From the NCBI RefSeq assembly GCF_000023325.1, contig NC_012785.1, positions 1,116,001-1,180,000 of the forward strand: a stretch of 64,000 nucleotides of DNA. The letters are read 5' to 3'. A program made the translations under genes and the position numbers. The notes under the pieces were generated by a model. That model was not told the origin of the DNA. It saw nothing but the letters and a program-made list of their open reading frames with translations, and did not search any database. Source of the stretch: Kosmotoga olearia TBF 19.5.1. Its GTDB lineage: Bacteria; Thermotogota; Thermotogae; Petrotogales; Kosmotogaceae. How positions within the stretch are numbered: position 1 is the stretch's first letter; every line of letters begins with the position of its first letter. Below, one piece after another: positions 3,082 through 18,037 of this stretch.

Positions 3082-4491
3082 TCACTTTGAAGCGTAAAAA
3101 GGGACTCTTTCAGACCTCCTGAATTCAATAAATCCGTCGTAAAATAATGGTTTAAGAAAGTTCAAGACGTCCGCAGAGGTCACAGATAGATCTGAACATA
3201 AATCTGGAAGAGCAATTGCTCCGTTATCAAAAATACTTTTCAGTATCCTTGCTTTGTATCCATCAACTTTGTACTTTCTTTGCAGCGTTTCACCTAATCT
3301 ATAAAACCTTGTCAAGAAAGCTTTATCTTTTTCCAAGTGCATCAGCGTATCTTGACTAACCACAACATAGTATTCTTTGAAAGCTTTTTGGATATTTAGT
3401 AAAAACATTTCAAGCTCTTTCAAGGCACGCTCACATCTTTCGGAAATTTCATCTAAAAACCCCTTTTGGAGCAAACTAACTGGGCAAGGCATACACCAAT
3501 CTTCATAGTAGCATTGAGAACAAATATAAGGTTTCCGCAGTTTTATTAATTCACTAACACTGTTAATAAAATCATCCATTCGTTTTTTGTCTTTTTCTTC
3601 AATAAACTCTTTGTTTAAGAGATCGATCATTGGGAGCCTGCCAACATTTGCCTCTTTATCCAAAATAGCGACACATGGAATAATACAGCCGTTTGGAAGT
3701 AGCGAAAAATTCCCGTTTAATACACCACACCTTGGTGGCAATGGACATAAATCCGTACCATACATGATATTGTAGTAAACTGCTTCAGGAGGAAACAATG
3801 ATTTGGAATTGAGATAATATCTCTTATAGTCTAGGGATAAGTACTCTTCCAAAATAATTTCCCACGCTTCTAAAAATTCTTCAGATGATAAAGCTATATC
3901 TGGGTTCTCCCGAGCATTTCCCTCCAATAAAAGCCCACCTATAACCACCATATCAACTGGAAGTGAATTGAAAAATGCAGGTATCTTATGAACTTCTAAT
4001 TTGTTCTTCCTATTCAAAGTCATTTGAATAACAATGGGCACGTACCTTCCTGGTTCCATAACATTTTTCAGATTATTTAGCGCCTTTAAAATCTGAACAA
4101 ACGTTCCTTTACCACGTATATAATCGTTCGATGTATCGCTAATACCTTCCATGCTTATATTTATTGCACCAACACCGCTATTTACAATTTTCTCTGATAG
4201 TGTAATATCCCGAAGTAATACACCATTTGTAACAAGTTCAGTATAAATCCCTTTCAATGAACAGTAAAAGATAAGCTTGTCAAGTTCTTTAAACAATGTT
4301 GGTTCTTTCGTTGTGAAATTTACTTTTTTAACCCCAATACTTGCTATCTTATTCACTATTTTCATTGCACTGTCAAGATCAAGCTCCTGGAAACTATCTA
4401 ATTTACTCCCTACAAAGCAGTGCTTGCAATTGAGATTACATTTTGGTTCAATTTCCCATCTTATACTTGAAATTTGCAAGCTGTTGAGCAT
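3082..4491 (-). CDS. Radical SAM/SPASM peptide-maturation enzyme
   Basis: A 469-residue radical SAM protein. The cluster motif CNLNCKHC is at residues 18-25. A second cysteine set in the C-terminal half (CPLPPRC, GCIIPC and CSQCYYEDWCMPC) fits a SPASM domain binding extra Fe-S clusters, as in enzymes that cross-link or epimerise ribosomal peptides. The last about 90 residues resemble a winged-helix or PqqD-like recognition domain. I start at ATG 4491, with GGGGTGA upstream; a GTG at 4503 overlaps the stop of the preceding gene. Neighbours are a PqqD-like protein and a GNAT-like protein, the usual company of RiPP maturases. Substrate unknown; the reaction is inference. Confidence 0.85.
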   Translation of the reverse strand: MLNSLQISSIRWEIEPKCNLNCKHCFVGSKLDSFQELDLDSAMKIVNKIASIGVKKVNFTTKEPTLFKELDKLIFYCSLKGIYTELVTNGVLLRDITLSEKIVNSGVGAINISMEGISDTSNDYIRGKGTFVQILKALNNLKNVMEPGRYVPIVIQMTLNRKNKLEVHKIPAFFNSLPVDMVVIGGLLLEGNARENPDIALSSEEFLEAWEIILEEYLSLDYKRYYLNSKSLFPPEAVYYNIMYGTDLCPLPPRCGVLNGNFSLLPNGCIIPCVAILDKEANVGRLPMIDLLNKEFIEEKDKKRMDDFINSVSELIKLRKPYICSQCYYEDWCMPCPVSLLQKGFLDEISERCERALKELEMFLLNIQKAFKEYYVVVSQDTLMHLEKDKAFLTRFYRLGETLQRKYKVDGYKARILKSIFDNGAIALPDLCSDLSVTSADVLNFLKPLFYDGFIEFRRSERVPFYASK

Positions 4492-4499
4492 GGTATCAC

Positions 4500-4617
4500 T
4501 CACCCCAAAAAGTATGAATATACAACCAGATCAGCTGTATAAAATTCGCCTTCTAATACAATTTCTTTGGTAAAGCCCGATTTCCTTAACAAATCAGTCA
4601 ATTCTTTTTGTCCAGTT
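4500..4617 (-). pseudogene. 3' part of the GNAT-like gene split by IS21 copy B
   Basis: When the IS and one copy of the 6-bp target duplication are removed, this piece joins in frame to the 5' part at 7001-7398. It gives a continuous C-terminus running through QKELTDLLRKSGF, then a D-x-VVYSYF-like last strand, and TGA at 4500-4502. A glycine-phenylalanine step before a final beta strand is typical of GNAT acetyltransferase C-termini. The stop overlaps the upstream GTG of the radical SAM gene, so the two genes were translationally coupled before the insertion. Confidence 0.75.
4612..4617. repeat. Target-site duplication of IS21 copy B, left copy (CCAGTT)
   Basis: CCAGTT lies directly outside the left terminus of copy B and is repeated at 7001-7006 outside the right terminus. 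IS21 elements make short target duplications of 4-8 bp, so six is normal. Removing one copy with the IS restores the reading frame of the interrupted gene. Confidence 0.85.
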
Positions 4618-4678: not shown

Positions 4679-5425
4679 TCAGGTATCTTCTAAAATATCC
4701 CTTCTTCGGTAACTTCTTCCAGACATATTGAGAATCAAAGTGTTGTGTGTAATTCTGTCTAACAATGCCATGGTTAGCGCTTTGTCATGGAAAATCTTTA
4801 TCCATTCTGAGAACACGAGATTCGTTGTAATTAACGTGCTCTTTGTTTCGTATCTCATTGCCAGGTATTGGAAGAGCAGCTCTGCACCTTCAATGTCAAA
4901 GGAAATGTATCCTAATTCGTCTATTATCACCAGATCGAGCTTTTTGAATTGTTTTGCGTATCTCACAAGTTGTTTTTCGTCTTTTGCTTCTTTCAGTTCG
5001 TTAATTAGGCCTGCCGCTGTTTTGAATAGAACGTTATATCCTTCTTCACAGGCTTTTATTCCTATCGCCGTTGCCAAATGTGTTTTTCCTGTACCGGAGT
5101 TACCCAGTAGTATTAGGTTTCTATTCGCGCTCAGAAATTTCAACGATTTTAGTTCTTTAAGATGTTTCCTGGCGTCTTCTGGAAGGGCTGCTTCGTTGAG
5201 TTCTTCAAATCTTTTGGGTGTTGGAAATCCTGCCCGCTTTATTTTCTTCACTATGTTTCTGCTTTCTCTGGATTGTACTTCCGATTCCAGTATCTCCAGA
5301 AGGAATTCAATGTAACTCATGCCTTCTTGTTGAGCTTGTCTAGTGATTCTCTCGTAACTGTTGAATATTCCCGGTGTTTTCAGCCTTTTGCACAATCTCA
5401 TTAGTTTTTCATCCACGGTGAACAC
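4679..5425 (-). CDS. istB: IS21 helper ATPase IstB, copy B
   Basis: The complete 248-residue IstB. An N-terminal helical region is followed by an AAA+ domain with Walker A GNSGTGKTH near residue 107, Walker B LDLVIIDELGY near residue 164, and a sensor segment TTNL. The length is that of the family. ATG at 5425 overlaps the 3' end of istA by 17 bases. Its stop lies just inside the left terminal repeat of the element. Confidence 0.96.
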   Translation of the reverse strand: MFTVDEKLMRLCKRLKTPGIFNSYERITRQAQQEGMSYIEFLLEILESEVQSRESRNIVKKIKRAGFPTPKRFEELNEAALPEDARKHLKELKSLKFLSANRNLILLGNSGTGKTHLATAIGIKACEEGYNVLFKTAAGLINELKEAKDEKQLVRYAKQFKKLDLVIIDELGYISFDIEGAELLFQYLAMRYETKSTLITTNLVFSEWIKIFHDKALTMALLDRITHNTLILNMSGRSYRRRDILEDT

Positions 5426-6878
5426 CTACCAATCTGTCGAACTCAGAAGGATCACCGTGGTCTATCTGTATCTTCAAAGGATAGTCAAAGGTTTCATATT
5501 GTATGGGCTTTTGTTGTAATAGGTTCCTCATTATGTCTGCTGTTGGGATAATCCCGTTTTCAAAGAGCACTTCTACCTTTTCGCAGAAGGTTTTTTCGTC
5601 ATAATCGTTCAATAATTCCAGTAATTGTACGAATTCCCTTGGCTTAGTGGTATAATATTTGCCGAACAGGACTTTTAGTGTGTCGTTTAATGCCTGGAAG
5701 GCTCTTGATCCTGCAAGGGCTCCAGGCTTTTTTCTTAGGGTGTTCAGGTAGTGAGCTATCTGTATGGCGTATTTACCTTTACCTCTTAAGCGTTTGTGAA
5801 CCGCAACGATTTTGCTTTCTTTCAATATTTCTATACGGTCTGGATATATCTTCAGCTGCACTCTCTTCCCGGGACAATCCTCAGGAACAGAATAGTAATT
5901 ACCGTCCAGCATTATTAACGAATATCTGGATATGATCCTTTCTTCAAGACGATAGTTGTTGTAGCTGGCGGTAGGTAATGCATTTAGTTTTTCTTCATTG
6001 AGAGCTTTTACCGGAACTAACTCTCTTCCATATACAGGAGAAGCATTTAGTTCTGCCAGTTTTTCTTTTAAATATTCATTCGCTTCTTCCAGGGAATCGA
6101 ATTCATTCCTTTCACTGAATACCCAATTTCTAACGAAACCAACACTTTCCTCATCTGTCCCCTTTTCCTGGGGTGAATAAGGATTACACAACCTGGGAGT
6201 GAATCCAAAGAAGGTGGCAAATTTGACGAAGTTCTTGTTCAGGTTCTTCCTGTCTTTCACCACCTTCATGTTGTCGTAGAATATCTCCTGTGGTACACCT
6301 CCAATCTCCTCGAAAAAGTCTATGTGTGCCTGGATTACCTCCTGGGCAGTTTCTCTTTCAAAGACCCTGGAAAAACGATACAGCGAACGATTCAGTACCA
6401 TGAATGCAGCAGGGTATTTCCCTTTTTCACCGGCAATGACGAGTTCCACCTCTCCCCAATCAAATTCAGCTCGTTTACCATCCGGCTTCTGAATGATGTA
6501 GACATCCCTTTGACCGTGTTCTTCCTTCCATTTGCGAACAATCCTTTTCACCGAGGTATAACTTATCTTGTGTCCTTCCTTAACCACCATTTGCCAGATT
6601 TTCTTCGCGGTGAATTGCAAATTCTTGGGTTTGTCCTTGTTGGAATCCAGGAGTTCTTCAATCCTCGCTACTGTCCTTGGCTCAATCGTCCGACGCTTAA
6701 AAGGAACGGGCTTCCTAACAATTACTTCCTTTGCGCTTCCTAATTTCACTGCTTCGATTCTGCGTAAATACTTCCTGACGGTGTTCCGGGATATCCCGGT
6801 GAGTCTTGTTACCTCACGAATAGAACCATATTCCTGATAGAGCCGTTGAATCTCTTTGACCTCGTACACGTTTTTCAC
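5409..6878 (-). CDS. istA: IS21 transposase IstA, copy B
   Basis: A 489-residue transposase apparently identical to the copy at 609-2078: N-terminal HTH, DDE core with FDWGEVE, FYDNMK and the EKGTDEE segment, and a C-terminal DNA-binding-like extension. GTG start at 6878 with GGAGGT nine bases upstream. Nothing in the frame suggests decay. Confidence 0.96.
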   Translation of the reverse strand: MKNVYEVKEIQRLYQEYGSIREVTRLTGISRNTVRKYLRRIEAVKLGSAKEVIVRKPVPFKRRTIEPRTVARIEELLDSNKDKPKNLQFTAKKIWQMVVKEGHKISYTSVKRIVRKWKEEHGQRDVYIIQKPDGKRAEFDWGEVELVIAGEKGKYPAAFMVLNRSLYRFSRVFERETAQEVIQAHIDFFEEIGGVPQEIFYDNMKVVKDRKNLNKNFVKFATFFGFTPRLCNPYSPQEKGTDEESVGFVRNWVFSERNEFDSLEEANEYLKEKLAELNASPVYGRELVPVKALNEEKLNALPTASYNNYRLEERIISRYSLIMLDGNYYSVPEDCPGKRVQLKIYPDRIEILKESKIVAVHKRLRGKGKYAIQIAHYLNTLRKKPGALAGSRAFQALNDTLKVLFGKYYTTKPREFVQLLELLNDYDEKTFCEKVEVLFENGIIPTADIMRNLLQQKPIQYETFDYPLKIQIDHGDPSEFDRLVGVHRG

Positions 6879-7000
6879 CCCTCGTATACCTCCTTGAGCA
6901 GATTGTTTCTATTATCTCGCTCAAGAAGGTCTTTTTTTCCAGGGGGTAACGGGTCAATTTTCTATGGCCCTGGGGGGTCAATTTTATTTGACCACATACA

Positions 7001-7006
7001 CCAGTT
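7001..7006. repeat. Target-site duplication of IS21 copy B, right copy (CCAGTT)
   Basis: The second copy of CCAGTT, paired with 4612-4617 across the element. Confidence 0.85.
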
Positions 7007-7398: not shown

Positions 7399-7876
7399 TT
7401 TCTGGCACCTCCGCAATTTCTCTTGTTTCAGATAAGCCAAACAAATCTTCTGGTTTAAGATTCCACACATTTTCTTCTACTACATCTATATTCACACTTT
7501 TTTCCCAGTAGACTTCTGGAACCTTATAACCTTGTCCTTGGAGATCTAAATCTTCGATTGATTTTACTCGATCTGCAAGCCATCTGTGAAAAAAGTGACA
7601 GACACTCTTTTCTAAACAACAACTTTCGGTTTTCTCACCTCCGAAGAGGATTTTTTCTTGCATTTCCAATGTTCTTGAAAAATCCACCTCTAACGTATCA
7701 GAAGAGATAAAAGCTTTGTTCAAACATTTCCTGCTGTCGATTAGGTAATAATCCAAAACTATCTGTGTATCTTGATTGCTGCTGAGTTTTTCGAATTTTT
7801 CCTCAAGCTTTTGAAAATGGATTTCTTCCCGTTTTCCAAGCCTTCTTTGGCACCTTAGAGAAACCTGTCGCGCCAT
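7385..7876 (-). CDS. Unrecognised protein, probably 5'-truncated, first gene of the peptide-maturation operon
   Basis: The frame is open for 163 codons, but the first about 20 read through an IS3-type remnant in another frame, so the real N-terminus is probably missing. The segment FEKLSSNQDTQIVLDYYLID is shared, at DNA and protein level, with the broken exported-peptide gene at 9607-9903; the two are paralogues. The middle holds SCCLEKSVC, a possible metal or modification site, then HFFHRWLADRV. The C-terminus is acidic. The stop overlaps the start of the GNAT-like gene, showing coupling. It could be a substrate or partner of the radical SAM enzyme; I recognise no family. Confidence 0.5.
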   Translation of the reverse strand: MARQVSLRCQRRLGKREEIHFQKLEEKFEKLSSNQDTQIVLDYYLIDSRKCLNKAFISSDTLEVDFSRTLEMQEKILFGGEKTESCCLEKSVCHFFHRWLADRVKSIEDLDLQGQGYKVPEVYWEKSVNIDVVEENVWNLKPEDLFGLSETREIAEVPENDGK

Positions 7877-7986
7877 TTGTAATACTGAGCTTGTGAAATT
7901 CCATGTTCTCTGCAGATTTGAGAAACGCTCTTTTCTCGACGAAGTTCTTCCAGAATTATTGCCAGCTTTTCTTCTGCCGGGGGTTT
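7855..7986 (-). pseudogene. Remnant of an IS3-type orfA transposase HTH
   Basis: Between stop codons at 7987 and 7855 the minus strand encodes AEEKLAIILEELRREKSVSQ, then ICREHGISQAQYYKWRDRFL. This is the N-terminal helix-turn-helix of IS3/IS911-type OrfA proteins, including the usual YYKWRDRFL ending. No start codon, no orfB and no terminal repeats are visible, and the frame is closed at both ends, so it is a decayed fragment. It lies exactly upstream of the truncated gene at 7385-7876 and probably marks the rearrangement that removed that gene's start. Confidence 0.8.
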
Positions 7987-8103
7987 CTACGCCATTAACT
8001 GCACTCTTTGTCTTTATTCTGGTTCTCTACTTTTTACCTGTTCAATTCTTCAGGGGAGCAGTATATAGTTTTTGTTCCATATTTGGGAGTCGAAGGAAAT
8101 TCA

Positions 8104-9021
8104 TCAATCCTTTCTAGCAAATAGCTTCAATATTTCAATAGAGTCCTCTGGACAGAAACCGTAACTATCGGAGATGTTTTCTCTTCCAGATATTGATCCA
8201 TCGAAGGGTTTTTCGACACATTTTGAACATAGCCTGCATTCTTCTGTGGAAAGGCTCAAATCCCATTTTGTAGATTTAGAAAAAATATTGCTTTCCAGAA
8301 AACAATTACCTTTTCCGGATAGTATTACTGCAACGTGGTTGCGATAGAAAATATTCTCCGATAAACCTAGTTCCAAGACATCAATAAACTTTGCACCAAT
8401 AACATTTTCGGAAAATTCGTTGTTCTGACTGTATAGCGTATCTACGTTGCTTACAAGAAGACCTGTTCCCATGTGTTTTACCAGGTTGTTGGTGAATTCT
8501 ATGTTATTAGCTGCTGATACAAGCAACGCTGTCCCACGGTATGTGAAACCTCCTTGGATTTTTTCCCTAACACCATTGAATACCGAGGTAGATATCGAAA
8601 GCGATCCACCAGAAAATAATATAGCGGTGCCGGAGGTCTCAAACTTACAATTTCTGAAGCTCACGTTGCTCATTATAATTTGAAAAAGCCTTCCATCCCC
8701 TCTGAATTTTATCCCCTCAAATTTTAGTTCATCAGAACCAATAACAACGATCATGGGGATTTCCGAATCAACTGGTTCAAAATAAACTTTTCCTTTCTCA
8801 CCAACTATCTCAAGGGATTTGTTTATGACAGCTTTTGTATTATAAACACCTGGCATGACTTTAATAATGTCACCATTTTGAGCGATATCAATAGCTTTTT
8901 GAAGTGAATTTATGTCACCTTCTGGATTGACTGTTATCGTTCTTCCCATCTCATCTGCAATCAAAAGTGTTGAAAGAACCAGTAAAACTGTGAAAAGCAT
9001 TAATGATTTTCTTAATGACAT
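8104..9021 (-). CDS. Secreted right-handed beta-helix (NosD/pectate-lyase-like) protein
   Basis: A 305-residue exported protein with a signal peptide over the first 23 residues (MSLRKSLML, then a leucine-valine core ending LLIAD). The opening ITVNPEGDINSLQKAIDIA with GDIIKVMPGVY is the classical start of a NosD-type parallel beta-helix, and regular coils such as NNIEFTNNLVKHMGTGLLVS and GAKFIDVLELGLSENIF follow. Four cysteines near the C-terminus (CRLCSKC and one more) could form disulfides or bind metal. ATG 9021 is used, with a G-run upstream. It begins 18 bases after the cysteine-rich secreted protein gene and is probably co-transcribed. Substrate unknown. Confidence 0.78.
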   Translation of the reverse strand: MSLRKSLMLFTVLLVLSTLLIADEMGRTITVNPEGDINSLQKAIDIAQNGDIIKVMPGVYNTKAVINKSLEIVGEKGKVYFEPVDSEIPMIVVIGSDELKFEGIKFRGDGRLFQIIMSNVSFRNCKFETSGTAILFSGGSLSISTSVFNGVREKIQGGFTYRGTALLVSAANNIEFTNNLVKHMGTGLLVSNVDTLYSQNNEFSENVIGAKFIDVLELGLSENIFYRNHVAVILSGKGNCFLESNIFSKSTKWDLSLSTEECRLCSKCVEKPFDGSISGRENISDSYGFCPEDSIEILKLFARKD

Positions 9022-9039
9022 ACCTGTCCCCCCCATAAT

Positions 9040-9432
9040 TCACATTAAAAAGCTTTGCTTCAAATTCAGGCCTACTTCACGGCGACAGCATGTCTCATAA
9101 GGAGTATCGAGAAGTGAATACCAACTACATGGATAAATCGTTACACATTCATATTCACCAACACAGGTTTCAGGATAGGTGCACTGTGCGAGACAATATG
9201 CAGTACATGCTGCATAACAAACAGCATTTGTTCCACAAGTAGCACATCCTACTACACATGATGCGTAACAGGTCCAATCAGTGTATGCAGGGCGTACTTC
9301 TGTGCACCAACATTCAGTGCGGGGTTCAGTTATACTGTCGTCACATTCTACTCGAAGTGGAATTATACTTTCTACAGAAAACAATACTGTTGAAACCATA
9401 ATTAGAAGAACAAAAACCATCCTTCTTAACAT
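9040..9432 (-). CDS. Secreted cysteine-rich protein (16 Cys)
   Basis: A 130-residue protein beginning MLRRMVFVLLIMVSTVLF, a clear signal peptide, from ATG 9432 with AAAGGAGGG upstream. The mature part of about 108 residues holds 16 cysteines, many in a CxxxC rhythm: CYASCVVGCATC, then CYAACTAYCLAQC, ending TCC. The central block resembles halocin C8-like bacteriocin domains in spacing, but that is a visual comparison. It could be a disulfide-rich toxin, a metal-binding protein, or a substrate of the radical SAM enzyme at 3082-4491. The beta-helix gene follows 18 bases downstream. Confidence 0.75.
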   Translation of the reverse strand: MLRRMVFVLLIMVSTVLFSVESIIPLRVECDDSITEPRTECWCTEVRPAYTDWTCYASCVVGCATCGTNAVCYAACTAYCLAQCTYPETCVGEYECVTIYPCSWYSLLDTPYETCCRREVGLNLKQSFLM

Positions 9433-9606
9433 ACGAATCCCTCCTTTTGTTTCTTTATTTCCTAAGTACATGTGCCTTCGACCCCCAAATATGTGACAAA
9501 AGCTATTTGTTTTCAGGATATAAAAATAAAAAATCCTGCTATGTCAAGAAAGTGCTGTAAAAACTTCCCTGTATCCCAAAAGAGACTACAACTCCGTATT
9601 TAGATA

Positions 9607-9903
9607 TCACAATCTTGCTTTACCTCTATCGGAACAAAAGAAATAAATTCTCAAACACTTCCAACTGTCGATCAGGTAATAATCCAGAAATTATCTGAGT
9701 GTCTTGATTGTTGTTGAGATTTTCAAAGTCGAAATTCAAAGAATTTACGTATACGTTTTCCGCGGTGCATTTGCTTGAACCATCTTTTGGTCCAACCACA
9801 TCATCTGGATCAGCCAGCAAAATTGAAAATTAATCAGCCAGCAAAATTGAAAAATTAAAGAGTATAGATAGTAAAAACAATATGAGTATTTTTCTGATCA
9901 TAT
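9607..9903 (-). pseudogene. Broken gene for a small exported protein, divergent from the first regulator
   Basis: ATG 9903 (AGGTGG upstream) opens a signal peptide, MIRKILILFLLSILF then SILLAD, but TAA follows at codon 24. The next 24 bases repeat the end of the signal-peptide coding sequence, after which the frame continues through ADPDDVVGPKDGSSKC and ENLNNNQDTQI. Past QI the best match to the gene at 7385-7876 (LDYYLIDS-KCL) is in another frame, so a one-base insertion is also present. The gene is therefore inactivated by a tandem duplication and a frameshift. Its place relative to the regulator at 10064 mirrors that of the intact peptide gene at 16077-16298. Confidence 0.7.
9809..9857. 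repeat. 24/25-bp tandem duplication inside the exported-peptide pseudogene
   Basis: Two adjacent units beginning ATCAGCCAGCAAAATTG occupy 9809-9832 and 9833-9857 and differ by a single A in an A-run. On the coding (minus) strand the second unit starts with TAA in frame, which ends translation at codon 24 although the downstream frame is kept. Confidence 0.9.
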
Positions 9904-10063: not shown

Positions 10064-11725
10064 TTGGAGAGAGAAAAACTGAGAAGTAAGATAAAAGCCC
10101 TTTTACAGGTACTAGATAACAATGGCAGTTTTGCAAAACCTTTCTTGAATTATTATGAAAGCGCCGGTTTACCTTCTGGATGGAGAAGCTACATTCAGGC
10201 CATTAAACTCGCATGGAACAGAAAGTACTTCAAAGCCCTGAAGATTCTAGAAACAACTCTAGTAATTACCAGAAAAAACGGAATTCTTTACTATCTAATA
10301 CTCAGTAAGAAAATGAGCATTTTGCATTTTTTGGGGCGAGAAGAGGCTACCGCTGTCTATAACAAGCTTCGTGAAGAGTTTTCAAGAATTCCTCCATTTT
10401 TGCGTTCAGCAGTGGCATCAAATTTACTAAACGTTTATGCAAGAACTGCTGATAACCCCAAAATGAAGAAGTTTAGGTTCTGGAGCGATTCTTATAAGAA
10501 AGATCAAAGTGGTTGGTGTTTTTTTCTTCTGGGAAAAGCCAGAGATTTTACCAAAAAAGGAGATGTCGTAAAGGCAAAAAGGCTTTTCCAAGAATGTATT
10601 GAAGAATCCCTTAAAGCTGATCACCCGATTGCAATTGCAACTGCTTATAACGATGCTGCCTGGCATTTAAGATCAACATATCCCGAAGATTCTATAAATT
10701 ATGCCCGAAAAGCTGCCTACTTAAATGGAAAATATAGGGAAAGCCCGGCTTCAGCACTTCCGAGTATCGATACACTAATCGAGGTAGAAAAGGACTTTGT
10801 GAGTAAAGAAGTAGTGAACCTTGAGATTTTTGCCGGATGTATGGAATGCGTACCAAAAGAAATGGAGAACCATATAAGGAAAAGATATGCTCATAGAATG
10901 ATACTATTACCAAAAATCCTCACCGATTTAGAAAAATCCTTATATGAAAACGATATGGAACTGAGAGAGTGGTTGAGTAAAAATATAAAGTCTATAAAGC
11001 AGACATCCTTACTTTCTGGAGTTGCAAGGGACAACCTCAGCAAACTCATTAACGGCAAAACCCAAACCGTCAGGGGTGAAACTTTAAGGAAGATAATCAC
11101 CGGATTGAAAATCGAGGTTGATCCACTCAACGATCCTTATCCGGTCGTGAACGAATGGATAAAACTTCAGATAGATAAAGGCTTTGAAAATGCGATAACA
11201 GAACTGGAAAAACTCAAACCATCCGAACATGAAATATTAATCCCCTCAACATACACCGCTCTTTTAAACAGAAGGAAAGATCATCCTTACCTGAGCAGGA
11301 AGGGAACGCTTTCCCGCGCACTGGAACTTTGCAAAGGAGATCTTCAAAAGTTCAAAGAATTTACGGAAAATCGTTATGAAACAAAGAAATTCGTGGCTCA
11401 ACTCTTCGAGCTTCATCCGTTCCTCGAAGGCAGGAGAGACCTTGTCAGGAAATTCCTGAAGGCCTTGCCTGCGAGAAAAAGAAAAGAGTTCATCCATAAG
11501 TATCTTCAACTCGGAGATGAAGACAGAGAGGTAATAGATACCTTCATGAGAAACTACGTTCGCTACGACAGGAACTGGGGGCTAAGGGTCAAACCTCCTG
11601 CAGAACTTTATCCCTTCACCCAGAAATACAGACTAAAGAAAACCCAGACCGCCCTCGCTTACTGGGCGCTGGATAAGAAGAAGGAAAGGAAAAAGCTGGC
11701 TAATAGACTGTTGAAGTTTGTTTGA
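10064..11725 (+). CDS. Helical-repeat regulator with central HTH (regulator 1)
   Basis: A 553-residue soluble protein. Residues about 40-250 look like TPR-type helical pairs (AIKLAWNRKYFKALKILE; GDVVKAKRLFQECIEESLKA; ATAYNDAAWHLR). Residues about 296-350 contain an XRE-like HTH, with LLSGVARDNLSKLINGKTQT followed by VRGETLRKIITGL. The C-terminal 200 residues are helical and basic. It is paralogous along its length to regulator 2 at 16457-18037. TPR plus HTH recalls RNPP peptide-sensing regulators, though there the HTH is N-terminal. The start is uncertain: TTG 10064 has no good ribosome site and a near ATG (10060) is out of frame. It lies divergent from an exported-peptide pseudogene. Confidence 0.75.
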   Translation: MEREKLRSKIKALLQVLDNNGSFAKPFLNYYESAGLPSGWRSYIQAIKLAWNRKYFKALKILETTLVITRKNGILYYLILSKKMSILHFLGREEATAVYNKLREEFSRIPPFLRSAVASNLLNVYARTADNPKMKKFRFWSDSYKKDQSGWCFFLLGKARDFTKKGDVVKAKRLFQECIEESLKADHPIAIATAYNDAAWHLRSTYPEDSINYARKAAYLNGKYRESPASALPSIDTLIEVEKDFVSKEVVNLEIFAGCMECVPKEMENHIRKRYAHRMILLPKILTDLEKSLYENDMELREWLSKNIKSIKQTSLLSGVARDNLSKLINGKTQTVRGETLRKIITGLKIEVDPLNDPYPVVNEWIKLQIDKGFENAITELEKLKPSEHEILIPSTYTALLNRRKDHPYLSRKGTLSRALELCKGDLQKFKEFTENRYETKKFVAQLFELHPFLEGRRDLVRKFLKALPARKRKEFIHKYLQLGDEDREVIDTFMRNYVRYDRNWGLRVKPPAELYPFTQKYRLKKTQTALAYWALDKKKERKKLANRLLKFV

Positions 11726-16076: not shown

Positions 16077-16298
16077 TCATGTATCTCGTACTCCCCTAAC
16101 TTCTCCCAGTTTTCTTCCGCGGAATTTAACCAGAGCCGATTGTGGTAGAATGAGAAGTAAGTTAGCCGTCAACTGCTGGATTATCACAGGATTTGTGTTT
16201 TCTGTGTTAGCGTTTGCATCTGTTTCATCAGCAAACGTTATTGTTACTGTCAAAAACAACATTATTAATATCAGCAAAATCTTTATGAATTTTTTCAC
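16077..16298 (-). CDS. Short exported peptide (73 residues), divergent from regulator 2
   Basis: A GTG start at 16298 with GAGGGGGAAGATA upstream. The first 23 residues form a signal peptide (KKFIKILLILIMLFLTV ending TFADE). The exported part of about 50 residues has an acidic, asparagine-rich start (ETDANANTENTN), a hydrophobic stretch (IIQQLTANLLLILPQSAL) and a basic tail (KFRGRKLGEVRG). No known family. It heads an operon with the lipoprotein, hydrolase and propeller genes, and lies divergent from the HTH regulator at 16457. It could be a signal-peptide precursor or a small toxin; inference only. Confidence 0.6.
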   Translation of the reverse strand: MKKFIKILLILIMLFLTVTITFADETDANANTENTNPVIIQQLTANLLLILPQSALVKFRGRKLGEVRGVRDT

Positions 16299-16354
16299 TA
16301 TCTTCCCCCTCTTATTTGCAGGATAATACATCCCATGTGATTTTTCAAATTTTC

Positions 16355-16456: not shown

Positions 16457-18037
16457 GTGAAGAAACTGCCCGAACTGCTCATGCCTGTATTCAGATATGG
16501 TGCATTTGCAAAACCTTTAATAATTAAAATCATCAATTCCAATTTGTCAGATAATATAAGGTACACTGCGCTTTCTTTTGTACATACGTGGAAAGGTGAC
16601 TATGACAAAGCGCTTTATTACACCCATAAGGCGCTTGATCTTTGTGGAAATAGCGGCATGCGCTATATGCTTCTTGCAAGGGAGCTGTCGTGCAAGGCAA
16701 GTCTCGGAAATAAAGATGAAAAGCTTTACCAATTTCTAAAAAGTAATTTGAATAAAATAAGCGGAAGAACACGAGAAGAAATAGAAGCAGTTATTTCAAA
16801 CGTAGAAGCAAGATGGGGAATAGCAAAATTGAAGAGAAAAACAAGAATTTGGGGGAGTAAAAAGATATTACCTGCCCTTGCTTTTCTTCATCTTGGTCGT
16901 GCGCGGAGACTTGCTGAAGAAGGAAAACTTCCTCAGGGGGTTCATCATTACATTCAGGCATACAGGCTTTCAAAGAATATTCCTCATCCTTCAGGAATTA
17001 CCAGTTCTCTTAACGGCCTTGCATGGAGAATAAGGGAAAAACATCCATTTTGGGCTCAGTCGATAGCGAGAAGAGCGGTGTATTATCTTGGTTATTACCG
17101 AGAGATTCCAGGCAATCTTTTTGGATGTCTTGACACGTTATTTGTGATTGAAAAAGCGATTAATTCATGTTCCATAGCGCAAACAGCGCGAGTAATTGCA
17201 TCTCTGCCAGTACCAAAGAACTATGAAAAACTTTCAAGGGAAGCAGAAAAATTCATTCCCAATTACTATATCTCTATGTACGAAAATACGGAAGAATTGA
17301 GGAAATACCTCAAAACGCTGATAGGTCCATACAGAAAAGAAAACGTAAGTATAGCGGGCCTTTCGGCGATTTTCACGGGTAAGACAAAGGTGATAAGAGG
17401 AAATACGCTGAGGAAAATAATAGAAAGGATAACAGAAAGTAGAAATGTGGATATTACCAGAATGCCTTATCCTGTATACAACGAATTGGTAAAACATAGG
17501 ATTGAAAAAAGCTTTGATGAAGCAGTTAAATATTTGGAAAAACTTCCGTTTTCAGAGAGGAAACGCCTTTTCTTTTCCACATTCATCGCACTTATTGACA
17601 GGGAGAAGTTTTACCTCTCAAGGAAAGATAAATTACTTGAAACGTATAAATCCCTCCGTGGTATAGATACATTCGCAAATCTTATGAGCAAAAGGTACGA
17701 AACAATGAATTTTGTGGTCGATATGGTAAAAGCTCATCCATACATAGAAGGAAGGAAAGCTGCGATACGCAAGGCTGTCGATAGAATGAGGATAGATGAG
17801 TTTATAAAACACTATGCGAAATTCAACGAGCACAACAGGAAACTGCTGGACAAATTTCTTCGAAACTACGGCAGGTATGATGGTATAAGGTTCGGGGTGA
17901 GGATAGATGGACCTGAGAGAGTGAGAGCATTTGCAAAGAGGTACAGATTGAAGATACAACCATGTTTTATTGCCTATTGGTGTGAAGAAGATGGAAGGAC
18001 ACGAAGAAAACTGGAAAGGATTTTGGAAATCATATAA
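16457..18037 (+). CDS. Helical-repeat regulator with central HTH (regulator 2)
   Basis: A 526-residue paralogue of regulator 1. GTG start with GGGGTTGGAAAA upstream. Shared landmarks: FAKP near the N-terminus, TPR-like helices (ALSFVHTWKGDYDKALYYTH), a central HTH-like segment (SIAGLSAIFTGKTKVIRGNT, then LRKIIERI), a block around SKRYETMNFVVDMVKAHPYI, and a C-terminal GRYDG...RYRLK segment. The two proteins differ strongly, so the duplication is old. It is divergent from a gene for a short exported peptide, which suggests a peptide-responsive regulator. The ligand and DNA site are not known. Confidence 0.75.
   Translation: MKKLPELLMPVFRYGAFAKPLIIKIINSNLSDNIRYTALSFVHTWKGDYDKALYYTHKALDLCGNSGMRYMLLARELSCKASLGNKDEKLYQFLKSNLNKISGRTREEIEAVISNVEARWGIAKLKRKTRIWGSKKILPALAFLHLGRARRLAEEGKLPQGVHHYIQAYRLSKNIPHPSGITSSLNGLAWRIREKHPFWAQSIARRAVYYLGYYREIPGNLFGCLDTLFVIEKAINSCSIAQTARVIASLPVPKNYEKLSREAEKFIPNYYISMYENTEELRKYLKTLIGPYRKENVSIAGLSAIFTGKTKVIRGNTLRKIIERITESRNVDITRMPYPVYNELVKHRIEKSFDEAVKYLEKLPFSERKRLFFSTFIALIDREKFYLSRKDKLLETYKSLRGIDTFANLMSKRYETMNFVVDMVKAHPYIEGRKAAIRKAVDRMRIDEFIKHYAKFNEHNRKLLDKFLRNYGRYDGIRFGVRIDGPERVRAFAKRYRLKIQPCFIAYWCEEDGRTRRKLERILEII

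Follow-up and report, generated by a model that had tools for sequence, protein, structure and literature searches.

The window analysed here is a stretch of 64,000 nucleotides (G000:C1:1116001-1180000) out of the 2,302,126-bp genome of Kosmotoga olearia TBF 19.5.1. Within it, a gene for a small cysteine-rich exported protein and a gene for an exported beta-helix protein lie together on the minus strand, among inverted repeats and the remnants of insertion sequences:

9040-9432, minus strand: cysteine-rich exported protein, 130 aa, 16 Cys, with a predicted strand-helix-helix-strand core (reading frame, alignment and AF2 model)
8104-9021, minus strand: exported right-handed beta-helix protein, the conserved partner, 305 aa when read from ATG 9021, with another in-frame ATG at 9036
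9475-9506: 32-nt inverted-repeat arm upstream of the cysteine-rich gene, 88% complementary to 8065-8096
8065-8096: second 32-nt arm of the inverted repeat, downstream of the beta-helix gene, pairing with 9475-9506
7784-8065, minus strand: IS3-like remnant (left end and orfA, named by eye) abutting the cassette, 88% identical to an element in L008 (11817-12100); further copies exist
9507-9726, minus strand: upstream region conserved with the cassette and ending in another orfA-like junction (copy comparison)
9830-9901, minus strand: degenerate short exported-peptide ORF (a signal peptide, then a stop, next to a short duplication) that diverges from the regulator; no more than an association
10064-11725, plus strand: TPR/HTH-like regulator, adjacent and divergently oriented in Kosmotogaceae alone; no more than an association

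The cysteine-rich gene and its surroundings

Translation from the ATG at 9432 yields the protein of 130 residues, and the longest frame in the list of open reading frames begins at 9471. A Shine-Dalgarno-like sequence, AAAGGAGGGA, lies directly before ATG 9432 and the start chosen in an earlier note on this DNA is therefore favoured over that at 9471. The same note had described a secreted protein with 16 cysteines in a CxxxC rhythm, a description that holds: the cysteines fall at residues 30, 41, 43, 55, 59, 63, 66, 72, 76, 80, 84, 90, 96, 102, 115 and 116, CYASCVVGC and CYAACTAYCLAQC are both present, and the hydrophobic, signal-peptide-like N-terminus appears, by eye, to be of the Sec type. 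Cleavage is likely after S19 (judged by eye), which would give a mature protein of 111 residues containing all 16 cysteines. Against a cysteine background of 1.0%, taken from the 26 ATG-initiated open frames of at least 300 aa within the window, the binomial probability of at least 16 cysteines in 130 residues is about 4e-13. The mature Kosmotoga protein is acidic, with 6 Lys and Arg against 14 Asp and Glu. A second copy in the same genome is 98% identical and a third, in genome G002, 94%. The gene is real, since its dN/dS is 0.12-0.16 in all three pairwise comparisons of these copies and its homologues retain the cysteines; both it and the beta-helix gene are under purifying selection.

Inverted repeats bracket both genes in all three Kosmotogaceae copies, those of the window being 32 nt long and the others 28 and 22 nt. 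With up to three mismatches allowed, the 19-nt core of the window's repeat is matched only twice within the window, where 0.05 would be expected. IS3-like remnants adjoin these repeats, and homology extends beyond both arms in all three copies, so that the repeats may not mark the true ends of the element. A scan for promoters and terminators gave results at chance level. Over the pair and its flanks, DNA identity is 93.7% between the two copies of the K. olearia genome, 90.4% between the window and G002, and 96.0% between the second copy and G002. As the pair is thus 90-96% identical between genera, compared with 69% for a Cu-ATPase-like gene of G000 and G002 (one gene only), these sequence identities are best explained by horizontal transfer of the pair. 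The same flanking repeats also enclose other cargo, namely an ABC exporter in L132 (5546-8094) and an ABC ATPase with a membrane protein in L133 (337-3111), which suggests cargo exchange between them. The TPR/HTH-like regulator belongs to a family found in nine places in this genome, including 10064-11725 and 16457-18037 of the window, L010 3988-5640 and L132 8462-10114. A short ORF for an exported peptide diverges from several of these regulators (window 16077-16331, L010 3632-3913, L132 8106-8387 and L093 625-849), an arrangement reminiscent of peptide-pheromone receptor pairs.

A radical SAM gene is also located in the window, at 3082-4503. It is flanked by two copies of an insertion sequence (IS21-like by eye; 1-2203 and 4801-7003), which are identical along the 2203 bp that fall within the window, and a PqqD-like ORF (2162-2935) and another ORF run into these copies. 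An island near the second cysteine-rich copy (L131 3504-12476, about 815.5-824.5 kb of the genome) contains three radical SAM/SPASM peptide-maturase-like genes together with ABC transporters.

Family distribution and the beta-helix partner

No fitting Pfam or NCBIfam model was found for the cysteine-rich protein. Weak matches to Pfam DUF3756 in two of ten family members (best E 0.27) were disregarded. A profile built from the two Kosmotoga copies and that of G002 retrieved distant homologues and was widened to a ten-row profile, A4, which leaves out G052, G085b and the second Kosmotoga copy. Of 103 Thermotogota genomes searched with A4, 11 carry the family, at 13 loci in all. Weak signals of the first profile in G089, in G030 and at a third site of G085 did not recur with A4 and are excluded from these counts. 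A scan of genome contigs with the single protein revealed no relatives, and the same contigs scanned with A4 gave three loci, all in Thermotogota MAGs. Relatives were found neither in viral contigs or plasmids nor, with the homologue L057 as the query, in phages, and the titles and abstract openings listed by literature searches disclosed no paper on the pair. These proteins constitute an undescribed family. Its members are single modules with 10-16 cysteines, that of G086 having an odd number (11). Fourteen columns of A4 are invariant, ten of which are cysteines (C30, C43, C55, C59, C63, C76, C80, C84, C90 and C102), and CxxxCxxxC occurs twice in all ten aligned rows; the broken G052 gene, which is outside the alignment, is without both middle cysteines. 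G085 (L056, L058) holds both subtypes of the protein, with and without C41/C96, the second broken by an in-frame stop.

The coupling to a secreted beta-helix protein, as proposed in the earlier note, is strongly supported across the family. In the window, the beta-helix gene starts 18 nt downstream of the cysteine-rich gene on the same strand, and inspection of the second Kosmotoga copy, G002 and ten further loci found it immediately downstream in 12 of the 13 family loci, the exception being G021. Order and strand are the same in 12/12, with a spacing of 11-68 nt. Conversely, 12 beta-helices score above 290 bits, and they are the very 12 that adjoin a cysteine-rich gene; the next-best beta-helix scores 136 bits, and no cysteine-rich neighbour was seen in 15 further loci inspected. 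Protein trees of the two partners, that of the cysteine-rich protein excluding G021 (no adjoining partner) and G052 (frameshifted), recover the same main groups (Kosmotogaceae plus G100 and G085a; G078 plus G079; G080 plus G084 and G085b), with some forks left open. The structural model of the partner is good (pLDDT 90.9), and the structural neighbours listed for it are mostly polysaccharide-acting beta-helices of low identity. Eight of its columns are invariant, with no evident catalytic set among them by eye. At L084, L085 and L098, the gene after a distant beta-helix encodes an exported protein that, by eye, begins like a thioredoxin with a CxxC; that of L085 has an SfLAP match below the cut-off.

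The cysteine-rich gene is disrupted in 4 of the 13 loci, by a frameshift in G080, an in-frame stop in G085b, two frameshifts in G052 and a frameshift in G021, counts that are small and in which sequencing errors are still possible. The beta-helix gene is open in all three broken loci that have one adjacent (G080, G085b and G052), and the partner may therefore act alone. This pattern of decay resembles the loss of a toxin with its immunity kept, but also simple dispensability.

Predicted fold and cysteine pairing

AF2 modelling of the mature cysteine-rich protein from 11 rows gave a mean pLDDT of 72.8 and a pTM of 0.46, the middle blocks mostly reaching 76-96 and the ends being disordered. The predicted order is a strand (19-24), a helix (34-47), a helix (51-65) and a strand (75-81) in mature numbering, to which 19 is added for the full-length protein, and the core helices carry cysteines at i, i+4 and i+8. 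The antiparallel helical hairpin that characterises alpha-hairpinins is present in this model, as a prediction. A Foldseek search with the model returned no match under E 0.001, Vanabin2 being a weak row at E 5.4. Five of the seven rows of a VIA structural search are plant alpha-hairpinins or vicilin leaders that span the hairpin (Z 2.9-5.2 over 36-40 residues, with Z 5.2 over 37 residues to 9q1l_F); the other two are IpaH and Ole e 6. These low Z scores may reflect only a common arrangement. A profile search of the PDB gave nigellin-1.1 as its sole match (E 0.012), and the likeness to the plant peptides is probably convergent.

The distribution of the cysteines bears on their pairing. In G052, both middle helix cysteines (C59 and C80) have been lost together, with alanine in their place, and C41 and C96, which lie on the two strands, both occur in G100, G085a and the Kosmotogaceae copies, the other six rows of A4 having neither. 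That the cysteines change in facing pairs favours disulfides, although the events are few and phylogenetically non-independent.

Proposed role, alternatives and known systems

The reading that we prefer, at roughly even chances, is that the cysteine-rich protein is a hairpin stapled by disulfides that acts at the cell surface together with a beta-helix partner of its own. On this reading, the cysteine-rich protein would be exported by the Sec pathway and stapled by disulfides, with two antiparallel helices zipped by three inter-helix bonds (C55-C84, C59-C80 and C63-C76). The hairpin would rest on a two-stranded sheet clamped by more cysteines, C41-C96 in this lineage and C30, C43, C90 and C102 in all members. 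Both proteins would be made from one operon and would act together in a dedicated surface or periplasmic complex, in which the hairpin protein would be scaffolded or bound by the beta-helix. The fold here is a model prediction, and the pairing, the physical complex and the surface role are inferred.

The main rival, which we regard as possible at best, is a secreted antagonist (a bacteriocin in the loose sense) whose exported beta-helix protein would be the cognate immunity or neutralising partner. Patchy spread with horizontal transfer, a broken cysteine-rich gene beside an open beta-helix gene at 3/3 such loci, and the proximity of both Kosmotoga copies to radical SAM genes, several of them peptide-maturase-like, with ABC transporters also near the second, are all consistent with antagonism. 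However, the sequence shows strong conservation and not diversification, acidic residues prevail in the mature Kosmotoga protein and, outside Kosmotogaceae, the pair sits amid ordinary genes (by eye). Halocin C8-like families, against which the earlier note had recommended a search, offered no help: the best score of the halocin C8 profile (TIGR04449) in the family is 15.2 bits, for a G085 member, none of the 103 genomes exceeds the cut-off of 24 bits, and 0/10 members have any NCBIfam match. Identity with halocin C8 was rejected on this basis. A more elaborate version of antagonism, and a rather doubtful one, envisages a triple-rung disulfide-zipped hairpin convergent with plant alpha-hairpinin defence peptides, the producer being protected by a dedicated exported beta-helix and the two-gene cassette having spread among thermophilic anaerobes.

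Two further explanations are less likely than either a surface complex or antagonism. A role in binding copper or another metal, comparable to that of Csp or vanabin and assisted by a NosD-like helper in the periplasm, would suit the CxxxC runs on helices, the weak Vanabin2 row and the sub-cut-off NosD matches of the window's partner. Such matches are common for beta-helices, though, the predicted core has two helices rather than a four-helix bundle, and the loss of cysteines in facing pairs suits disulfides. The earlier note had named a clear match to a metallothionein-like or structural surface protein as grounds for abandoning its reading; none was found in family databases. With no metallothionein or Csp copper-storage Pfam family matched at E<=10 in ten members, these identities were rejected, and metal binding is unlikely. 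The proposal in the earlier note that the protein is a target of the nearby radical SAM enzyme, i.e. a cross-linked RiPP precursor, fared worse and is highly improbable. The radical SAM and PqqD-like genes lie about 4.5-7 kb away, and the three radical SAM/SPASM-like genes about 8.5 kb or more from the second copy. Yet none of the other 16 family genomes searched has a match to the window enzyme at E<=1e-20, and the enzyme's absence from G002, carrier of the 94% copy, makes a substrate role unlikely; the proposal was rejected on this distribution. The conserved maturase of radical SAM RiPPs is lacking, as no homologue outside Kosmotoga adjoins a comparable maturase gene (by eye), the signal is of the Sec type with no leader recognised by eye, and the SAM gene stands between two insertion-sequence copies that are identical and at least 2.2 kb long. 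The radical SAM link is a trait of Kosmotoga islands, not of the cysteine-rich family. Unrelated-looking radical-SAM-like genes occur at two other loci (L064 4206-5453 and, by eye, L058 9847-10899).

What is new is a protein family that neither Pfam nor NCBIfam models, together with its link to one particular beta-helix protein. That strict anaerobes should nevertheless export such a protein, with 10-16 conserved cysteines, makes oxidative folding at the Thermotogota envelope directly testable. If the pair proves antagonistic, it would represent a new toxin-partner type.

Several known systems share features with the pair. The halocin C8 domain is likewise secreted and cysteine-rich, but no family member attains its profile cut-off. 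The partner has the right-handed parallel beta-helix and the export of NosD and Beta_helix proteins (PF05048, PF13229), but possesses its own conserved C-terminal region and is dedicated to the cysteine-rich gene, whereas its distant cousins are solitary. It also has the beta-helix fold of the polysaccharide lyases RbmB and PL6, to whose structures it is 10-16% identical, in contrast to which its invariant columns include no evident catalytic residues by eye. The closest resemblance in shape is to the plant alpha-hairpinins (nigellin-1.1, Luffin P1, and the Jug r 2 and Ara h 1 leader peptides), with which the family would share the antiparallel hairpin and its CxxxC...CxxxC staple, the CxxxC-Xn-CxxxC motif being present in its members. 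Alpha-hairpinins, however, are short four-cysteine plant peptides cut from a precursor, whereas the Kosmotoga protein is bacterial, exported and about 110 aa long, with three cysteines per helix, a two-stranded sheet, one module per gene and a genetic tie to a beta-helix protein. If the hairpin fold is right, the family would be a bacterial example of a fold for which this analysis gave plant peptides as the only matches.
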